Of a stretch of DNA of 64,000 nucleotides, positions 3,229-45,179 are shown in pieces (within the stretch, counting starts at the first letter, position 1; each line of letters begins with the position of its first letter). Where the stretch lies: contig NZ_CP043329.1 in the NCBI RefSeq assembly GCF_008195825.1, positions 2,666,001-2,730,000 on the forward strand, given 5' to 3'. Both the position numbers and the translations under genes were made by a program. Below the pieces are notes generated by a model, which was not told the origin of the DNA, ran no database searches, and saw nothing but the letters and a program-made list of their open reading frames with translations. The DNA is from Pedobacter aquae. Its GTDB lineage: Bacteria; Bacteroidota; Bacteroidia; Sphingobacteriales; Sphingobacteriaceae.

Positions 3229-3946
3229 TTAAAATGGAATGTTGGGATGTCTTTTTTGGAAAATTGGAATGTCAAATCTTCCCTTTAAAAATTCATTATC
3301 CTTAGTTCCGTTTATTTTCCTATTTGTATTTATCTAGTTTGGAATGTTGGAATGTTTTCTTTGGAAAATTGGAATACCAAATCTTCCCTTTAAAAATTCA
3401 TTATCCTTAGTTCCGTTTATCTTACTATTTGTATTAATCTAGTTGGAATGTTTTTTTTTTGGAAAATTGGAATGCCAAATCTTCCTTTTAAAAATTATTT
3501 TCCTTAGTTCCGTTTATTTTACTATTTGTATTTATCTAGTTGGAATGTTTTTTTTTGGAAAATTGGAATGCCAAATCTTCCTTTTAAAAATTATTTTCCT
3601 TAGTTCCGTTTATCTTACTATTTGTATTAATCTAATTGGAATGTTGGAATGTTTTCTTTGGAAAATTGGAATACCAAATCTTCCCTTTAAAAATTCATTA
3701 TCCTTAGTTCCGTTTATTTTACTATTTGTATTTATCTAGTTGGAATGTTTTTTTTTGGAAAATTGGAATGCCAAATCTTCCTTTTAAAAATTATTTTCCT
3801 TAGTTCCGTTTATTTTCCTATTTGTATTAATGTTTTTTTTTGGAATGTTGGAATGCCAAATTTATCCTTTTAAAAATTATTTTCCTTAGTTCCGTTTATT
3901 TTCCTATTTGTATTAATGTATTTAATTGGAATGTTGGAATGCCAAA
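3229..3946. repeat. Tandem array, seven ~95-115 bp units
   Basis: Seven copies are countable from the segment CCTTAGTTCCGTTTAT (near 3299, 3407, 3501, 3597, 3700, 3797 and 3885). Each unit has one or two TTGGAATG octamers, GGAAAATTGGAATGCCAAAT, an A/T-rich stretch, CCTTAGTTCCGTTTAT and TTGTATTAATCTAGTT-like sequence. Units differ by small indels. The CCAAAT...TTAGTTCC segment resembles the 3' end of the neighbouring four-helix-bundle gene, which reads CCAAATTTATCCTTTATAA at 3943-3961 and CCCAAGTTCC at 3971-3980. The units therefore look like decayed copies of the gene's 3' end plus its terminal repeat. The 737-nt gap holds no credible gene. Confidence 0.85.
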
Positions 3947-3947
3947 T

Positions 3948-4358
3948 TTATCCTTTATAAAAACTATCATCCCAAGTTCCATCTTTCATTTTCTTTTGTA
4001 ACGATTTTATTAATTGTATTAGAGCGTTTTCTATTTTATAATGCAATTGATCTAATTTTTCAAAATCACTTTTAATTATTTGATTAGCTTTTAAGAAACT
4101 ATAAATACATGAATGGTATTCTCCACTGGATCCTAAAGCTATATTTAAAAATTGCAGATATTCTTTAATACTTCTTCTGCAATAACCTTCTGCAATATTT
4201 CTACTTATACTATGTGCACTATCAATGCAATTACTTGCTGTTTTTTTTAACTCAAATGGGAAATTTGAAATTATTTCACATGATATCGCATACAAATCAA
4301 TAGCATCACTCCAGACTCTTAACTGTTTATAACCTCTATTAATATTATTACGTTCCAA
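3948..4358 (-). CDS. S23/IVP-like four-helix-bundle protein (copy 1)
   Basis: This 136-residue protein belongs to the four-helix-bundle family first seen in intervening sequences of 23S rRNA (S23/IVP, Pfam 23S_rRNA_IVP). Hallmarks are YKQLRVW near the N-terminus, SRNIAEGY (about residues 52-59) and the ALGSSGEY helix (about 74-81). The family's function is unknown. The start appears to be TTG (4358-4356), since no ATG is in frame before YKQLRVW. Copies 2 and 3 in this window end at 120 and 117 residues. This one has a C-terminal extension ending GTWDDSFYKG, and DNA resembling that end recurs in the adjacent tandem array. TTGGAATG-type repeats in opposite orientations bracket the gene. Confidence 0.8.
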   Translation of the reverse strand: MERNNINRGYKQLRVWSDAIDLYAISCEIISNFPFELKKTASNCIDSAHSISRNIAEGYCRRSIKEYLQFLNIALGSSGEYHSCIYSFLKANQIIKSDFEKLDQLHYKIENALIQLIKSLQKKMKDGTWDDSFYKG

Positions 4359-4445: not shown

Positions 4446-4463
4446 TTCCATTCCAATATTCCA
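4446..4463. repeat. Inverted partner of the TTGGAATG terminal repeat
   Basis: TTCCATTCCAATATTCCAA here is the near-complement of the GGAATGTTGGAATG octamers on the other side of four-helix-bundle copy 1. The gene is therefore bracketed by inverted short repeats with an 8-nt period. This repeat abuts the stop codon of rfbA (4469). Confidence 0.6.
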
Positions 4464-4468
4464 AAAAA

Positions 4469-19314: not shown

Positions 19315-19809
19315 CTACAACTGCTTAACATGATGTTTAGTATGTACCACCATAAAACGCAGCCAATTTTTAGCGTCTAAATAACCTAATCTAGGATGTT
19401 TAATTTTATAATGGGTATCAAAATTTTTAAAATCTGCTTCTAAAGCGGGTAGTTTTCTTTTAAGATTGATGATTTGATTTGCAGCATCTTCTAAACTGAT
19501 ACGCTCTACCTTAGCAGCAACAGCTTCTGGGGCTTTAATCTTACCTGGAGGGAAAACTCCGAAAAATAAAATGAGTCTAACTCGCCAATCGGGTTTATTG
19601 GTTTTAATATGAGCAGTTCTGTTTAAGCAATTTTCTGTCGCAATAGCTGCTGTTTTATTTACCCAAATGACATGTGAATAAACTTCTGAAACCGACCAAA
19701 CATTTGCCTCTGGCTTAGCAAAAAAATCATCTTCATGAATAGCTTTTAGGTATGCCAGGTAATAATCTAACAGTTTATGTAATGATTTAAAATTTGCTCT
19801 TACACTCAT
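19315..19809 (-). CDS. DinB-like superfamily protein
   Basis: This 164-residue four-helix protein matches the DinB/YfiT metalloenzyme-like fold. The metal-binding His residues would be His46 (SEVYSHVIWV) and the C-terminal HTKHH cluster (about residues 157-161). DinB-like proteins include thiol-dependent transferases, and the substrate here is unknown. The start overlaps the YjjG stop by 4 nt, indicating coupling. Confidence 0.8.
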   Translation of the reverse strand: MSVRANFKSLHKLLDYYLAYLKAIHEDDFFAKPEANVWSVSEVYSHVIWVNKTAAIATENCLNRTAHIKTNKPDWRVRLILFFGVFPPGKIKAPEAVAAKVERISLEDAANQIINLKRKLPALEADFKNFDTHYKIKHPRLGYLDAKNWLRFMVVHTKHHVKQL

Positions 19810-20498
19810 AACAAAGCTTTTAGTTCTGATAAATGATTGATATGCACATCAACATCTTCGGGTATGGTAAGCTTATTTGGATTAAAATAAATAGCATCCA
19901 TACCTATATTTTTAGCCCCTCTTATATCGGCTTCTATGCTATCACCAATCATGATACTCTCATGGACAGCGCCACATGCTAAGTTTAAAGCATGTTGAAA
20001 AATAGCCTTATCCGGTTTATTGATTCCTACTACTTCTGATATAATGATATTCTTGAAATAAGGCTTCAAATTGGTATTTTCTACTTTATACTCGGTAGAT
20101 TCTTTAAAACCGTTAGATATTAGATGTAAATGATATTTCTCATGCAGATAGGTTAAAACCTCATGCGTATGAGGAAACAAATTGGTTTTGGTAGGACAAA
20201 TACGTACATAATCATCCTCGAAAGAGATAGGTACTTTAGTTTCATCAATGCCTAAATCAATAAAAGTTTTTCTAAAACGTGTTTCTCTGAGTTCTTGTTT
20301 TGAGATTTCTCCTAAATGGTATTTAGCCCATAACTGATGATTATTAGCCGTATAAGTTTCAATTAAAATATCGGGGGAATGTAAGCCCAATACTTTTAAT
20401 TGATGATGATGGTATAATTCATAAATGGTTTCTTCTGCATTTTTATCAAAATCCCAAAGGGTATGATCTAAATCGAAGAAAATATGTTGGTATTGCAT
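19806..20498 (-). CDS. yjjG: YjjG-type HAD nucleotidase
   Basis: This 230-residue HAD hydrolase has nucleophile and acid Asp9 and Asp11 in FFDLDHTLWDF. SNGFKES is motif II, Lys in GINKPDKAIF is motif III, and MIGDSIEADIRGAKNIGM is motif IV. YjjG-family enzymes dephosphorylate non-canonical pyrimidine nucleotides. A heptad array ends 3 nt from the start codon, and this gene overlaps the DinB gene. Confidence 0.88.
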   Translation of the reverse strand: MQYQHIFFDLDHTLWDFDKNAEETIYELYHHHQLKVLGLHSPDILIETYTANNHQLWAKYHLGEISKQELRETRFRKTFIDLGIDETKVPISFEDDYVRICPTKTNLFPHTHEVLTYLHEKYHLHLISNGFKESTEYKVENTNLKPYFKNIIISEVVGINKPDKAIFQHALNLACGAVHESIMIGDSIEADIRGAKNIGMDAIYFNPNKLTIPEDVDVHINHLSELKALL

Positions 20499-20501
20499 GT
20501 T

Positions 20502-20578
20502 CAGTTGTCGGTTATCAGTTGTCAGTTGCGGGTTATCAGTTGTTGGTTTTCAGTTATTAGTTGCGGGTTATTAGTTTT
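20502..20578. repeat. Heptad repeat array, left side of four-helix-bundle copy 2
   Basis: Eleven consecutive 7-mers share GTT at positions 3-5: CAGTTGT, CGGTTAT, CAGTTGT, CAGTTGC, GGGTTAT, CAGTTGT, TGGTTTT, CAGTTAT, TAGTTGC, GGGTTAT, TAGTTTT. It runs from the start codon of yjjG to the stop codon of four-helix-bundle copy 2, with 3 nt and 1 nt to spare. Confidence 0.9.
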
Positions 20579-20579
20579 A

Positions 20580-20942
20580 TTATTTTGGGGTAAGTGATGC
20601 GTAATATTTTATAAATCCACTTAACAATTTTCTTGATTTTTGTAATACTTCTAACTTTCTTTCTAAGCTTTCTTGATTAATAAAGCCAAGATCATAAACT
20701 AAGTATAGCTGCGTTTCGAGCTCATATAAAGATCCTCGGGCGATATAAAAAAACCTAATAGAATCCTTTTGAGTTTCTCTGCCGCACCCTTCTGCTATAT
20801 TAGACGGAATGGATATCGCCGCTCTTTGAATTTGTGAAATAAGTCCGAACTTTTCAGAATCTGGAAATAATCTCGTCATTTCATATATAACTTTCACCAA
20901 ATATCTAGCTTCTTTCCAAACTTCTAAATCGGTATAATTCAT
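20580..20942 (-). CDS. S23/IVP-like four-helix-bundle protein (copy 2)
   Basis: The 120-residue product has the family N-terminus YTDLEVWKEA (residues 3-12), the signature SIPSNIAEGCGRET (about 49-62) and ARGSLYELETQL (about 73-84). The family's role is unknown. Relatives include ORFs in 23S rRNA intervening sequences, and the fold resembles Avd of diversity-generating retroelements. The gene is wedged between upp and yjjG. Inverted heptad arrays (20502-20578 and 20994-21035) bracket it and fill most of the space between the two host genes. Confidence 0.88.
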   Translation of the reverse strand: MNYTDLEVWKEARYLVKVIYEMTRLFPDSEKFGLISQIQRAAISIPSNIAEGCGRETQKDSIRFFYIARGSLYELETQLYLVYDLGFINQESLERKLEVLQKSRKLLSGFIKYYASLTPK

Positions 20943-20993
20943 TATCTCTTCAAAAAATTATTTTACGTAATAAAAAAGCTTCGCCAAAATTCA

Positions 20994-21035
20994 GGAACTG
21001 GAAACTGTCAACCGGCAACCGGCAACTGATAACCC
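20994..21035. repeat. Heptad repeat array, right side of four-helix-bundle copy 2 (inverted)
   Basis: Six 7-mers in a row: GGAACTG, GAAACTG, TCAACCG, GCAACCG, GCAACTG, ATAACCC. CAACTGATAACCC is the exact complement of GGGTTATCAGTTG in the left array, so the two arrays are inverted. It ends 1 nt before the upp stop codon. Confidence 0.88.
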
Positions 21036-21036
21036 A

Positions 21037-21678
21037 TTACACTTTTTCTCCAAAGGCTAAATCTCCGGCATCACCCAAACCGGGTACAATATAAGCTTTG
21101 CTGGTCATCTCTTCATCTATAGCTCCTAACCAAAGTTTGGCTTTTGGTAAATGAGCTTTTACATGTGCTACACCAACCTGGCTGGCAATGGCCGATACGA
21201 TATGTAAATCTTTAATCTTATAATTTGCCATCAATTCTTTGCAACAAAGTACCATACTTTGGCCAGTGGCCAACATAGGGTCGGCAATAATTAAAGTTCT
21301 TCCATCTAAATCCGGAGTAGAGAAATACTCCATTTTTATGATGAAACTACCATTCTTTTGCGTTTTCCTGTAAGCAGCAATAAAAGCAGAATCGGCTTTA
21401 TCAAAATAGTTCAGTAAACCTTGGTGTAAAGGTAAACCGGCTCTTAAAATGGTTGCTAAAACAGGCTGATTTTTAGTTAAATTTATATTGGCCAAGCCTA
21501 AAGGTGTTTGTACTTCAAACTCTTCATAAGTGAGCGTTTTGCTGATTTCGTAAGCAAAAATCTCCCCTAAACGTTCCATATTTCTTCTGAAACGCATGCT
21601 ATCTGTTTGTACATCTACATTTCTAAGTTCTGCTAAAAAATGGTTAGCTATGGTATTTTGCTGGCTGAGTATGAACAT
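21037..21678 (-). CDS. upp: Uracil phosphoribosyltransferase
   Basis: This enzyme salvages uracil with PRPP to UMP. It is 213 residues long. ATILRAGLPLHQGLLNYF and the PRPP loop LIIADPMLATGQSM are diagnostic. GAIDEEMTSKAYIVPGLGDAGDLAFG is the uracil-binding C-terminus. The four-helix-bundle element follows directly. Confidence 0.94.
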   Translation of the reverse strand: MFILSQQNTIANHFLAELRNVDVQTDSMRFRRNMERLGEIFAYEISKTLTYEEFEVQTPLGLANINLTKNQPVLATILRAGLPLHQGLLNYFDKADSAFIAAYRKTQKNGSFIIKMEYFSTPDLDGRTLIIADPMLATGQSMVLCCKELMANYKIKDLHIVSAIASQVGVAHVKAHLPKAKLWLGAIDEEMTSKAYIVPGLGDAGDLAFGEKV

Positions 21679-36797: not shown

Positions 36798-36805
36798 TTT
36801 TTGGA

Positions 36806-36834
36806 GTATTGAGTATTGAGTATTGAGTATTGAG
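36806..36834. repeat. Heptad repeat array (GTATTGA x4)
   Basis: Four identical 7-mers GTATTGA run without interruption. They end 8 nt before the argH start codon. The Fic gene begins on the other side. Confidence 0.85.
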
Positions 36835-42600: not shown

Positions 42601-43719
42601 CTTACTTAATGCTTCTAAAAATCTATCAGCGTGTTCTCTAGTTAAATTTAATGCTGGCAATAACCTAATCACGTTAGGTTTAGCTTCGCCAGTGAAGATA
42701 TGATGGTTAAATAATAAGTTTTTCTTCACTTGGTTAAGCTCTTCTGGTAAATCAATACCAATCATTAAACCTTTGCCACGTACTTCTTTAATGTGGTTTA
42801 GTTTCTGAAGCTCTTGAATTAAATAGCCGCCTATTTTAGCTGCATTATCCATCAAATGCTCTTGCTCCATCACTTCTAACACAGCTAAAGCTGCCGCACA
42901 AGCCAAATGGTTACCACCAAAAGTAGTACCTAACATACCATGCCAAGGTTTTAACGCCGGACTGATACTGATACCGCCAATAGGAAAACCATTGCCCATA
43001 CCTTTTGCCATGGTATAAATATCGGCATCTACACCAGCAAAATCTGAGGCATAAAATTTACCGCTTCTGCCGTAACCACACTGTACAGAGTCTGCAATAA
43101 AATAAGCTCCGTATTGTGTACATAATGAACGTATGCTTTGTAAAAATTCATCACTAGCAACCTGTATACCGCCAACACCTTGAATACCTTCTATTATAAC
43201 TGCACAAATTTCATTTCCTTGTTCAGCAAATAAGGTTTTTAGTGCATCAACATCATTATGAGGCAAGAAAACAACATTTTCTGTTTGGTTTACCGGAGCT
43301 ATAATTTTAGGATTATCTGTTGCCGATACTGCTAAAGATGTTCTGCCATGGAAAGCTTTTGTAAAAGCCACAATTTTTTTTCTTCCATTGGCAAAAGATG
43401 CCAATTTTAAAGCATTCTCATTAGCCTCGGCACCAGAATTACACAAGAAAAGCTGATAATCTTCTCTGCCTGATATTTTCCCTAGTTTATCTGCCAATTC
43501 TTCCTGTAAAGGAATTTTAATAGAGTTTGAGTAAAAACCCAATTTACCTAACTGCTGTGTTAAGCGCTCTACATAATGCGGATGCGTATGACCTATAGAG
43601 ATTACAGCATGCCCACCATAAAGGTCTAAATATTCCTGTCCTTTATCGTCCCAAACCAAGCTCCCCTGGCCTTTTACGATTTCTATATTGTTTATTGGGT
43701 ATACGTCGAAAAGTTTCAT
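42586..43719 (-). CDS. argD: Acylornithine aminotransferase
   Basis: This PLP-dependent class III aminotransferase converts N-acyl-glutamate semialdehyde to N-acyl-ornithine. The 377-residue protein has FLCNSGAEANENALKLA and IIEGIQGVGGIQVASDEFL. The Schiff-base Lys is in YTMAKGMGNGFPIGG. The ATG is 6 nt from a heptad array. A four-helix-bundle gene is inserted between it and argC. Confidence 0.94.
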   Translation of the reverse strand: MKLFDVYPINNIEIVKGQGSLVWDDKGQEYLDLYGGHAVISIGHTHPHYVERLTQQLGKLGFYSNSIKIPLQEELADKLGKISGREDYQLFLCNSGAEANENALKLASFANGRKKIVAFTKAFHGRTSLAVSATDNPKIIAPVNQTENVVFLPHNDVDALKTLFAEQGNEICAVIIEGIQGVGGIQVASDEFLQSIRSLCTQYGAYFIADSVQCGYGRSGKFYASDFAGVDADIYTMAKGMGNGFPIGGISISPALKPWHGMLGTTFGGNHLACAAALAVLEVMEQEHLMDNAAKIGGYLIQELQKLNHIKEVRGKGLMIGIDLPEELNQVKKNLLFNHHIFTGEAKPNVIRLLPALNLTREHADRFLEALSKELKA

Positions 43720-43725
43720 TTTTTA

Positions 43726-43761
43726 GAGTTGTAAGTTTTAGGTTTTTAGGTTGTAAGTAGC
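43726..43761. repeat. Heptad repeat array, left side of four-helix-bundle copy 3
   Basis: Five 7-mers occur in register apart from one extra T at 43747: GAGTTGT, AAGTTTT, AGGTTTT, AGGTTGT, AAGTAGC. The array fills the space from the argD start codon to the stop codon of four-helix-bundle copy 3. Confidence 0.85.
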
Positions 43762-44115
43762 TTATGCTCTAACTTTTTGAATTAATAAAATAAGCATTGC
43801 CTTCACTTCATTGATGTTTTTTTCTAAAATTAAATAATCTTCTATAGGTAAATAACCGAGGTCTTTTGCAAGCAGCAGAAAGTATTCTGTTTCGTTTGCT
43901 GATCCTAAAGCAATATTCAAATATTTACCGAAATCGTTTTTAGTATTTTTTCCACATCCCTCAGCAATATTGGCCGGTATAGATGATGAAGCCCTTCTAA
44001 TCTGACTGGTAACTGAATAAATCTCTTCTTTCGGAAAGTTCTTAGTCACGCTGTAGATTTTAAGCGTTAATTCATGTGACTTTACCCATACTCTTAAATC
44101 TTTGTAATTCTGCAT
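43762..44115 (-). CDS. S23/IVP-like four-helix-bundle protein (copy 3)
   Basis: This 117-residue protein has YKDLRVWVKS (residues 4-13), SIPANIAEGCGKNT (about 45-58) and ALGSANETEYFL (about 69-80). It is closely like copy 2 and more distant from copy 1. It sits between argD and argC. Inverted heptad arrays lie on both sides and the gene with its arrays occupies nearly the whole junction. It has no evident part in arginine synthesis. Confidence 0.88.
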   Translation of the reverse strand: MQNYKDLRVWVKSHELTLKIYSVTKNFPKEEIYSVTSQIRRASSSIPANIAEGCGKNTKNDFGKYLNIALGSANETEYFLLLAKDLGYLPIEDYLILEKNINEVKAMLILLIQKVRA

Positions 44116-44120
44116 TGGCT

Positions 44121-44155
44121 AACTTATAACTCAAGAACTTATAACCTAAAACCTT
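44121..44155. repeat. Heptad repeat array, right side of four-helix-bundle copy 3 (inverted)
   Basis: Five 7-mers follow: AACTTAT, AACTCAA, GAACTTA, TAACCTA, AAACCTT. ACTTATAACCTAAAACC is close to the complement of GGTTTTAGGTTGTAAG on the left side. It ends 4 nt from the argC stop codon. Confidence 0.82.
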
Positions 44156-44159
44156 TTAG

Positions 44160-45179
44160 CTAAAACCCAATCGCTTTCAACCTCAATCCTTCTTTTTCAT
44201 CCAAACCAAACATCAAATTCATATTTTGTACGGCTTGGCCTGATGCGCCTTTTAGTAAGTTATCTATGATGGATAAAATCATCAGTTTATTGCCGTGTTT
44301 TTCTAGATGAATAAAGCATTTATTGGTATTCACAACCTGCTTTAAGTCTATATTTTCCTTGCTGATATGCGTGAAAGGTGCATCTGCATAAAAATCTTGA
44401 TATAATTTCTCTGCTTCTTCTAAACTTAAATCACAATCCATATAGCTTGAGGCCATAATTCCACGAGCAAAACTACCGCGATAAGGAATAAAGTTTAACA
44501 CTAAATCCTCTTGTTCTCCTGTCTTTGCTCCCTCTCCTTTGGAGAGGGTTGGGGTGAGGCTTTTTAGGCTTTCGCCGATTTCATTTAAATGCTGATGCTC
44601 AAAAGCTTTATAAACCGATAGGTTATTACTCCTCCAACTAAAATGAGAGGTTGTTGTTGGCTTTTGCCCTGCCCCTGTAGAACCTGTTGTTGCAGTGATG
44701 TGTACTTCAGATTTTAACAGCCCGGCTTTGGCTAAAGGCAATAAAGCCAGTTGTAAACAGGTTGCAAAACAACCTGGATTAGCAATATTCTGAGCTGTTT
44801 TTATGGCTTCTTTGTTAAGCTCGGGTAAACCGTAAATAAATTTTCGATTTTCGATTTTTGATTTTTGATTGAGCCTGAAATCTTGAGAAAGGTCAATAAT
44901 TTTGATGTTATCGTTAAAATTATTTGCTTCTAAAAACTTTCTAGCATCGCCATGCCCAACGCATAAGTACAACACATCGATATCCTGCGAAAGCTTATCG
45001 GTAAATTTCAGGTCGGTATCGCCAAGTAAATCAGTATGCACATCTGATATTAAGTTACCAGCATTGCTATTACTGTGTACATAAGCAATATCAACCTTTT
45101 GGTGATTAACCAAAATTCTTAAAAGCTCTCCGCCAGTATATCCTGCACCACCAATTATACCTACTTTTATATTACTCAT
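44160..45179 (-). CDS. argC: N-acyl-gamma-glutamyl-phosphate reductase with two repeat-derived insertions
   Basis: The enzyme reduces N-acyl-glutamyl phosphate. The 339 residues include the NADP motif GIIGGAGYTGGELLRIL (8-24), catalytic Cys137 in NPGCFAT and the FIPYRGSFARG segment. Two stretches are foreign to the family. Residues about 103-113 (LNQKSKIENRK) are encoded by a heptad array. Residues about 206-223 (KSLTPTLSKGEGAKTGEQ) are encoded by a GGAGAGGG hairpin repeat. Both keep the frame and probably fall in surface loops. It overlaps argG by 8 nt. Confidence 0.93.
   Translation of the reverse strand: MSNIKVGIIGGAGYTGGELLRILVNHQKVDIAYVHSNSNAGNLISDVHTDLLGDTDLKFTDKLSQDIDVLYLCVGHGDARKFLEANNFNDNIKIIDLSQDFRLNQKSKIENRKFIYGLPELNKEAIKTAQNIANPGCFATCLQLALLPLAKAGLLKSEVHITATTGSTGAGQKPTTTSHFSWRSNNLSVYKAFEHQHLNEIGESLKSLTPTLSKGEGAKTGEQEDLVLNFIPYRGSFARGIMASSYMDCDLSLEEAEKLYQDFYADAPFTHISKENIDLKQVVNTNKCFIHLEKHGNKLMILSIIDNLLKGASGQAVQNMNLMFGLDEKEGLRLKAIGF
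44528..44560. repeat. GGAGAGGG hairpin repeat inside argC
   Basis: Arms CCCTCTCC (44530-44537) and GGAGAGGG (44541-44548) flank a TTT loop, with TTGGGGTGAGGC after it. This is the same unit as in argB and at the argF' end. It is read in frame as TPTLSKGEG. Confidence 0.9.
44845..44872. repeat. Heptad array inside argC
   Basis: Four 7-mers (CGATTTT, CGATTTT, TGATTTT, TGATTGA) lie in the coding sequence. They are of the same type as the intergenic array at 35273 and 35363 and encode NQKSKIENR on the minus strand. Confidence 0.85.

Follow-up and report, generated by a model that had tools for sequence, protein, structure and literature searches.

The S23/IVP gene located between upp and a yjjG-like gene of Pedobacter aquae, together with the two inverted arrays of 7-nt repeats (heptads) that enclose it, is best explained as one minimal mobile cassette that is inherited as a unit, a reading to which we assign a probability of about 0.72. 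It was observed that gene and arrays co-occur and differ together from site to site, and that the whole unit is present or absent at three gene junctions. The window, which is the whole stretch of 64,000 nt that was analysed (contig NZ_CP043329.1, positions 2,666,001 to 2,730,000), carries this element with the following components:

19806..20498, minus strand: HAD hydrolase gene (yjjG-like), the downstream host gene
20502..20578, minus strand: D (downstream) arm, 11 tandem heptads with a GTT core
20580..20942, minus strand: S23/IVP four-helix-bundle gene, 120 aa (PF05635 E = 5.3e-38; 2gsc E = 1.9e-24)
20996..21035, minus strand: U (upstream) arm, inverted relative to the D arm, 5.7 heptads
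21037..21678, minus strand: upp (uracil phosphoribosyltransferase), the upstream host gene

Read along the minus strand, upp is followed by the U array, the IVP gene, the D array and the yjjG-like HAD gene; on the plus strand, the D arm reads NRGTTNN (CAGTTGT, CGGTTAT, CAGTTGT, CAGTTGC, GGGTTAT and so on). The first-pass annotation, made from the sequence alone, had described an 11-unit array and an inverted array of about 6 units around an S23/IVP gene at the upp-yjjG junction, ending within 1-4 nt of the host codons, and this description was borne out: besides the array lengths given above, the outer end of the U arm lies 1 nt from the upp stop codon and that of the D arm 3 nt from the yjjG-like start codon, the 13-mers quoted for the left and right sides, GGGTTATCAGTTG (20530-20542) and CAACTGATAACCC (21023-21035), are exact reverse complements, and the gene reached 129.9 bits with the PF05635 (23S_rRNA_IVP) profile, whose curated cut-off is 33.8. 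The element has terminal inverted repeats, built as tandem heptads, and these complementary repeats enclose the ORF. Its inverted score of 19.5 was reached by 0/2000 dinucleotide shuffles (mean 8.2, maximum 17.0), and the best inverted score among 51 other window genes, with 200-nt flanks, was 12.0. No transposase or recombinase was found between the arms, where the sole ORF of at least 80 aa is the PF05635 gene; a Pfam scan of the element's gene returned PF05635 only, with no Y1 tyrosine transposase, and no reverse transcriptase with template and variable repeats was found inside the element or in its immediate neighbours.

Three IVP genes were identified in the window (3948-4358, 20580-20942 and 43762-44115), with inverted scores of 17.5, 19.5 and 12.5, respectively, the last of which barely exceeds the best control (12.0). 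The other two elements are composed as follows:

43711..43758, minus strand: D arm of the second element (argC-argD junction), AGGTTTT-like heptads
43762..44115, minus strand: IVP gene of the second element
44121..44152, minus strand: U arm of the second element
3948..4358, minus strand: IVP gene of the third element, with TTGGAATG (8-nt) arms

The TTGGAATG arms of the third element are present in many copies at 3235-3967, where this arm type is expanded to a higher-order repeat of 85-105 nt, and as a single short arm at 4449-4468. The genome (3.85 Mb) harbours eight IVP genes, and inverted flanks were significant at p <= 0.05 in 8/8 of them and at p <= 0.01 in 6/8; by eye, the two sides of their 300-nt flanks matched in inverted orientation, and the repeat units differed between most loci. 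Two other repeat regions of the window were recorded. A GIY-YIG gene (1163-1477) lies among CTTCGACTCCGCTCAGG arrays and their complement, in both orientations (841-2063; inverted score 21.0, direct score 36.0), and is perhaps part of another gene-plus-repeat element. The 7-nt repeat ATTTTCG x 4.4 is found within the argC coding sequence (44840-44870).

The presence or absence of the unit was followed at three junctions, which were read by eye from printed sequences and whose filled gaps measured 416-603 nt. For upp-yjjG, 18 genomes of the genus were searched, of which 14 possess upp and nine keep the junction; the element was found in 4/9, one of them with a frameshifted gene, and the remaining 5/9 were empty, with gaps of 32-177 nt devoid of heptad arrays. 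Two of these empty junctions (G014 and G017) contain a short TTCAG-containing stretch, which might be a remnant. For argC-argD, 15 genomes were compared: one is empty (a 4-nt gap), two have no adjacent argD, five carry an IVP of type A with AGTT-containing heptads, and four carry type B, with AAAGCTN-like heptads on both sides and 44-49% identity to the type A copy of the window. The remaining three (L300, L304, L305) hold an unrelated insert, palindromic (CCTCACCCTAACCCTCTCC...GGTGAGGC) and with no IVP gene. The third junction, between thiolase and acyl-CoA dehydrogenase genes, was represented by 30 loci, 29 of them with both genes, and these comprised 12 gaps of 2-45 nt, eight elements with an IVP gene (one broken), eight intermediate gaps of 72-146 nt and one other insert. 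Gaps with arms and no full gene thus occur, since 7/8 of the intermediates, as judged by eye, carry arms on both sides (L340, L345, L360) or on one side (L343, L346, L350, L364) and no full gene, L355 being armless.

The comparison with empty sites that had been proposed for upp-yjjG was in this way extended to all three junctions, and the vacant ones had no such arrays; they were too diverged, by eye, to fix the element ends or a target site duplication. Moreover, the genes that neighbour IVP loci are unrelated: 152 loci fall into 46 junction clusters, the two largest of which comprise 45 and 29 loci.

How general the inverted flanks are was assessed in a pool of 219 loci taken from the genus, the phylum, named GTDB contigs, plasmids and IMG/VR contigs, which covered Bacteroidota, Cyanobacteriota and Gemmatimonadota besides the IMG/VR contigs. 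L037-L050 and L183-L185 had been excluded beforehand, and 28/235 hits were dropped, namely 19 with a predicted protein shorter than 90 aa, 7 duplicates and 2 with short flanks, leaving 207; the 19 short predicted ORFs may be decaying copies. The first-pass annotation had proposed that IVP genes elsewhere be examined for inverted arrays of 7-nt period, and these were present: inverted flanks reached p <= 0.05 in 151/207 loci and p <= 0.01 in 124/207, in a sample biased to high-scoring IVP hits in which the 80 named loci represent one subfamily. Direct flank repeats reached the same thresholds in 40/207 and 33/207 loci; 56/207 showed no significant inverted arms, and the 40 with significant direct repeats had them instead or as well. 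The median flank score over the 207 loci was 14.0 for inverted and 9.0 for direct matches, and 8.5 for shuffles. Among 226 control ORFs from the same loci, the 99th percentile was 13.9, a value exceeded by 106/207 IVP loci, and the highest-scoring control (L090, 892-1243) is itself a second IVP gene. When lags of 3-20 nt were compared, the mean z-score was 3.31 at lag 7 and 2.57 at lag 14, with all others below 0.8, and the best lag was 7 or 14 in 155/207 loci.

PF05635 was found in 157/198 sampled Bacteroidota genomes. In the plasmid loci, which are mostly cyanobacterial, the arms of 10/13 were matched by at most 1/100 shuffles. In searches of plasmids, one Calothrix strain proved to have a 100% identical copy of an element on a second plasmid, and another Nostoc to have a 98% copy; neither was counted as evidence of movement, and no transposition event was observed. 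The IVP protein of the window had no match at E <= 1e-5 among 50,697 phage records, and a search with the GGGAATC pattern returned three IMG/VR contigs, none with an IVP match.

Additional evidence that gene and arrays form one unit came from the relationship between heptad type and protein clade, which was examined in the 152/207 loci with a 7-nt z-score above 2. Protein identity correlated with arm similarity over 10,321 non-syntenic pairs (Spearman 0.258), while 300 permutations gave values of at most 0.099 and the reversed-orientation control gave 0.073. Arm similarity was 7.3-8.0 below 50% protein identity, 9.4 at 50-60% and 11.8 at 60-75%; between different host orders, assigned from genus names, the correlation was 0.43 over 1,931 pairs, a figure computed without permutations. 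The thiolase-junction IVPs do not form one clade in a tree of 42 IVPs (AU p = 1.6e-5), where the starred branches force at least 4 changes, so that this junction was reached more than once. L358, from the thiolase junction, is sister (100/97) to L029, from a fadB-thiolase junction, and both have AGTATCAAG heptads; similarly, L351 and L207 are paired (99/88) and have similar AGAT-type units. The argC-argD IVPs may constitute one clade (1 change, support 51/91), and the replacement of type A by type B at this site could therefore represent divergence in place. Over 786 orthologue pairs, the similarity between the two arms of one element remained steady at 14.6-16.4 as the orthologues diverged, whereas the similarity between arms of the same side dropped from 36.7 to 14.0, which suggests that the two arms change together. 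These observations, along with the empty sites and the arrays found at IVP genes elsewhere, support the earlier suggestion of an unrecognised element composed of the gene and its array termini.

With regard to arm anatomy, a significant 7-nt array was detected in 210/414 arms, of which 165/210 have 3-5 units. Among 78 named loci, the GTT core was repeated in runs of 4 or 5 units in 50 U and 46 D arms, the shuffles giving mostly 1. The outer edge of the U array lies at most 10 nt from the upstream stop codon in 61/105 loci, and the edge of the D array lies between -10 and 20 nt from the next start codon in 48/81. A 35-nt super-period, which would be a sign of a pentamer, was absent in 13 long arms. 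As for orientation, the IVP gene is co-oriented with both neighbours in 163/189 loci overall, that is, in 155/164 from Bacteroidota, 8/11 from plasmids and 0/14 from IMG/VR contigs, for which the neighbours are ORF-based and less sure because the contigs are mostly GC-rich. In this last set (L173-L195), 8/14 IVP genes are opposite to both neighbours, and in L175, L176, L182 and L186 the opposite neighbours are long and just 15-37 nt away. Co-orientation as a general rule was rejected on account of the IMG/VR set: orientation is biased, yet the direction differs between sets, and the bias may differ by clade.

An alternative explanation, in which the arms act in RNA, deserves to be considered first. 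According to it, the unit would be an intervening sequence whose arms pair in the operon mRNA, with the IVP gene in the loop and an RNase III-like cut of the stem, and the arms would be kept because they pair as RNA. The co-orientation with both neighbours in Bacteroidota agrees with this explanation, as does the stable duplex formed by the arms, with a median of -40.0 kcal/mol against -26.4 kcal/mol for arms taken from different loci, and the rRNA intervening sequence (IVS) of Coxiella, which has 428 nt and a 28-bp terminal stem cut by RNase III, is alike in size and layout (PMC4990558). However, if selection acted on an RNA stem, an excess of G-U over A-C mismatches would be expected in the sense strand, and 125 against 139 were found (p = 0.42), which lends no support to such selection; the antisense arms pair slightly better (-42.6 kcal/mol; stronger in 81 loci and weaker in 68, p = 0.039), and the IMG/VR genes show no co-orientation with both neighbours and often face against both. 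We consider this explanation unlikely, though it survives better than the other two discussed below.

Heptad arrays are also found alone, and two of these solo arrays lie in the window:

36804..36834, no strand assigned: solo array GAGTATT x 4.4, 6 nt before a start codon
18119..18148, no strand assigned: solo heptad array of GTATTGA / GTATGGA type

The length of the first is kept at the same place in two relatives, with a one-base difference in one. Across the genome, the RGTTRNY pattern gave 121 overlapping hits, compared with 6 for the reversed control, and at least about 20 RGTT sites could be distinguished among the matches listed. Only 1/16 RGTT loci, the window element itself, has an IVP gene within about 1.5 kb. 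Solo arrays outnumber gene-bearing arrays in this genome, from which it follows that arrays exist and persist alone. The 20 array regions compared are intergenic, apart from single arrays in L317 and L333, and several arrays are placed directly 3' of a stop codon or 5' of a start codon. Two further arrangements were also noted. Three rRNA operons of the genome (L315 1473-1526, L326 and L328) have a palindromic pair of RGTT arrays in the 23S-5S spacer, and a gene-less array pair whose arms differ (AAAGTAG and GAGTATT types) lies between two genes in L332 (1445-1537), the latter counting against the cassette reading.

Given this abundance, it could be argued that the arrays came first, arising by slippage or serving as host regulatory sites, and that IVP genes settle or survive between them. 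Such a sequence of events would accommodate the solo arrays, common as they are and with no IVP nearby at 15/16 loci, as well as the solo array that is stable in three species, and MacGregor read TAACTGA arrays as possible regulatory sites (PMC4679880). It accounts poorly, however, for arrays that are inverted and placed on both sides of the gene, for heptads that track the protein clade across junctions and host orders, and for the lack of such arrays at empty junctions. The lengths of IVP-adjacent arrays, moreover, peak at 4-5 units with no fall-off. Genome-level counts point the same way: among 198 Bacteroidota, RGTT hits outnumbered those of the reversed control by 5 or more in 31/157 genomes with an IVP and in 1/41 without (Fisher p = 0.007, kinship ignored). 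Within the IVP genomes, the excess occurred in 6/11 with an IVP at least 50% identical to that of the window element among the matches listed and in 25/146 others (Fisher p = 0.008, with a threshold set post hoc, counts read by hand and kinship ignored). The arrays-first order of events is thus improbable, and somewhat more so than pairing in RNA. Under the preferred reading of a mobile cassette, the solo arrays would be remnants of former copies.

The protein itself is under purifying selection. Between the window IVP and the copy that G007 has at this junction, dN/dS was 0.12, and values of 0.04-0.14, which point to strong constraint, were obtained in 7/11 pairs with finite dS, dS being saturated in the other 4. 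At least one IVP gene appears to be transcribed, as one is listed among the differentially expressed genes of Flavobacterium psychrophilum (PMC5787105). A domesticated host regulator, immobile and acting on its own operon through RNA or DNA binding at the flanking arrays, would explain this selection, the arrays that adjoin start and stop codons and the IVP type kept over long distances at argC-argD, but it is very improbable in view of the unrelated neighbours (46 clusters among 152 loci), the patchy presence at all three junctions examined and the thiolase-junction IVPs that are not one clade.

The solved homologue of the window IVP is XCC0516 (2gsc, E = 1.9e-24), a toroidal homopentamer built of four-helix bundles (PMC4990558). 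Since heptads are clade-specific, it is suggested that the protein recognises its own arrays, and the homopentameric ring, taken together with arms of mostly 3-5 heptads, leads to the proposal of one ring per arm, in which the IVP protein would bind the heptads with one heptad per subunit; this geometry is based on the published pentamer and on array length. The cassette, which sits tightly in the space separating a stop codon from the next gene's start codon, could then move as follows. An IVP ring would bind one arm, at about one heptad per subunit, and two bound arms would bring the element ends together in a synapse, where cutting and joining would be carried out by a putative host or trans-acting enzyme. 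In Bacteroidota, in which the gene mostly reads with its neighbours, transcription would probably be supplied by the host operon. Copies could later lose the gene, leaving paired or solo heptad arrays.

A broader reading, which we put forward tentatively and regard as doubtful, would unite IVP cassettes, orphan heptad arrays (STRR, TAACTGA, GGGAATC) and rRNA intervening sequences in one mobile superfamily, in which each member would be a ring protein that recognises a 7-nt code of its own, at one heptad for each subunit, and that spreads from junction to junction, perhaps via the host transcript, while lacking its own recombinase. Insertion between codons and the fixed orientation in Bacteroidota would be consistent with an RNA step, while the IMG/VR loci, which lack co-orientation, weaken this superfamily reading. 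Joining PF05635, a family with no known function, to heptad arrays, which had no known partner protein, gives both a testable identity, that of a mobile unit of very small size whose 7-nt code is specific to its clade. A mobile unit that has no recombinase would amount to either a parasite of a new type or host enzymes put to a new use.

Among known systems, the rRNA IVS is the nearest kin, and it may be the same thing in another place. It shares the protein family, a similar size and an ORF within complementary terminal repeats (PMC4990558), and IVP ORFs have been described at several 16S and 23S insertion sites (PMC11270868). The window element differs in lying between protein genes (upp and HAD), outside rRNA, and the ends of IVP cassettes are clade-specific 7-nt arrays. 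The cyanobacterial STRR, TAACTGA, GGGAATC and GGGGA(C/T)T repeats are, like the arms of the window element, intergenic 7-nt arrays (PMC4679880, PMC4692102), of which Rehm reported GGGAATC and GGGGA(C/T)T in 2015 (PMC4692102), whereas MacGregor found the TAACTGA arrays mostly immediately 5' of start codons (MacGregor 2015, PMC4679880); inverted pairs were reported in Xanthomonas (PMC4679880/PMC4692102). TAACTGA corresponds to the heptad TCAGTTA on the opposite strand, and no exact tandem TAACTGA was found in the window element, in which the core is likewise AGTT and the units vary (CAGTTGT, CGGTTAT and others). The parts of these two papers that were covered make no link to an IVP gene, although MacGregor suggested that an unidentified repeat-binding protein could be involved as a possible mobile element (PMC4679880).

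IVP genes have also been found in other contexts. Eighteen were listed in cas loci, in many cases together with cas4 or cas6 (PMC3936711), a set for which our results offer an alternative reading, since copies in plasmid cas operons have inverted arms and cas-associated IVP genes may therefore be insertions. Three such copies from cyanobacterial plasmids (L163, L165 and L172), two at cas6-cas4 and one at cas10-cmr3 within the operons, are flanked by inverted arms; L163 gave a direct match stronger than the inverted one. Four-helix-bundle genes are among those unique to one Arthrospira strain (PMC8700078), and in two strains of Flavobacterium columnare such a gene lies between guanylate kinase and adenylyltransferase genes, with gaps of 33-88 nt by the printed coordinates, and was listed as a phage element (PMC5524665). 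Avd of diversity-generating retroelements is a homologous four-helix-bundle protein (PMC10053308), and the second IVP copy of the window gave a bAvd match below the cut-off; in contrast to those retroelements, the IVP element has neither a reverse transcriptase nor template and variable repeats.

No link between IVP genes and heptad arrays was recognised in the open literature covered, which included PMC10910872 and PMC11637426 and consisted mostly of titles and the beginnings of abstracts, subscription papers and preprints lying outside it. In its general plan, the cassette resembles the REP/RAYT system, which likewise comprises a gene with short end repeats and many solo repeats throughout the genome. 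RAYT carries a catalytic Y1 domain, whereas the sole gene of the IVP element belongs to PF05635 and its repeat is a tandem heptad array. We know of no element that combines an IVP protein, protein-specific tandem heptad ends and the absence of a recombinase.
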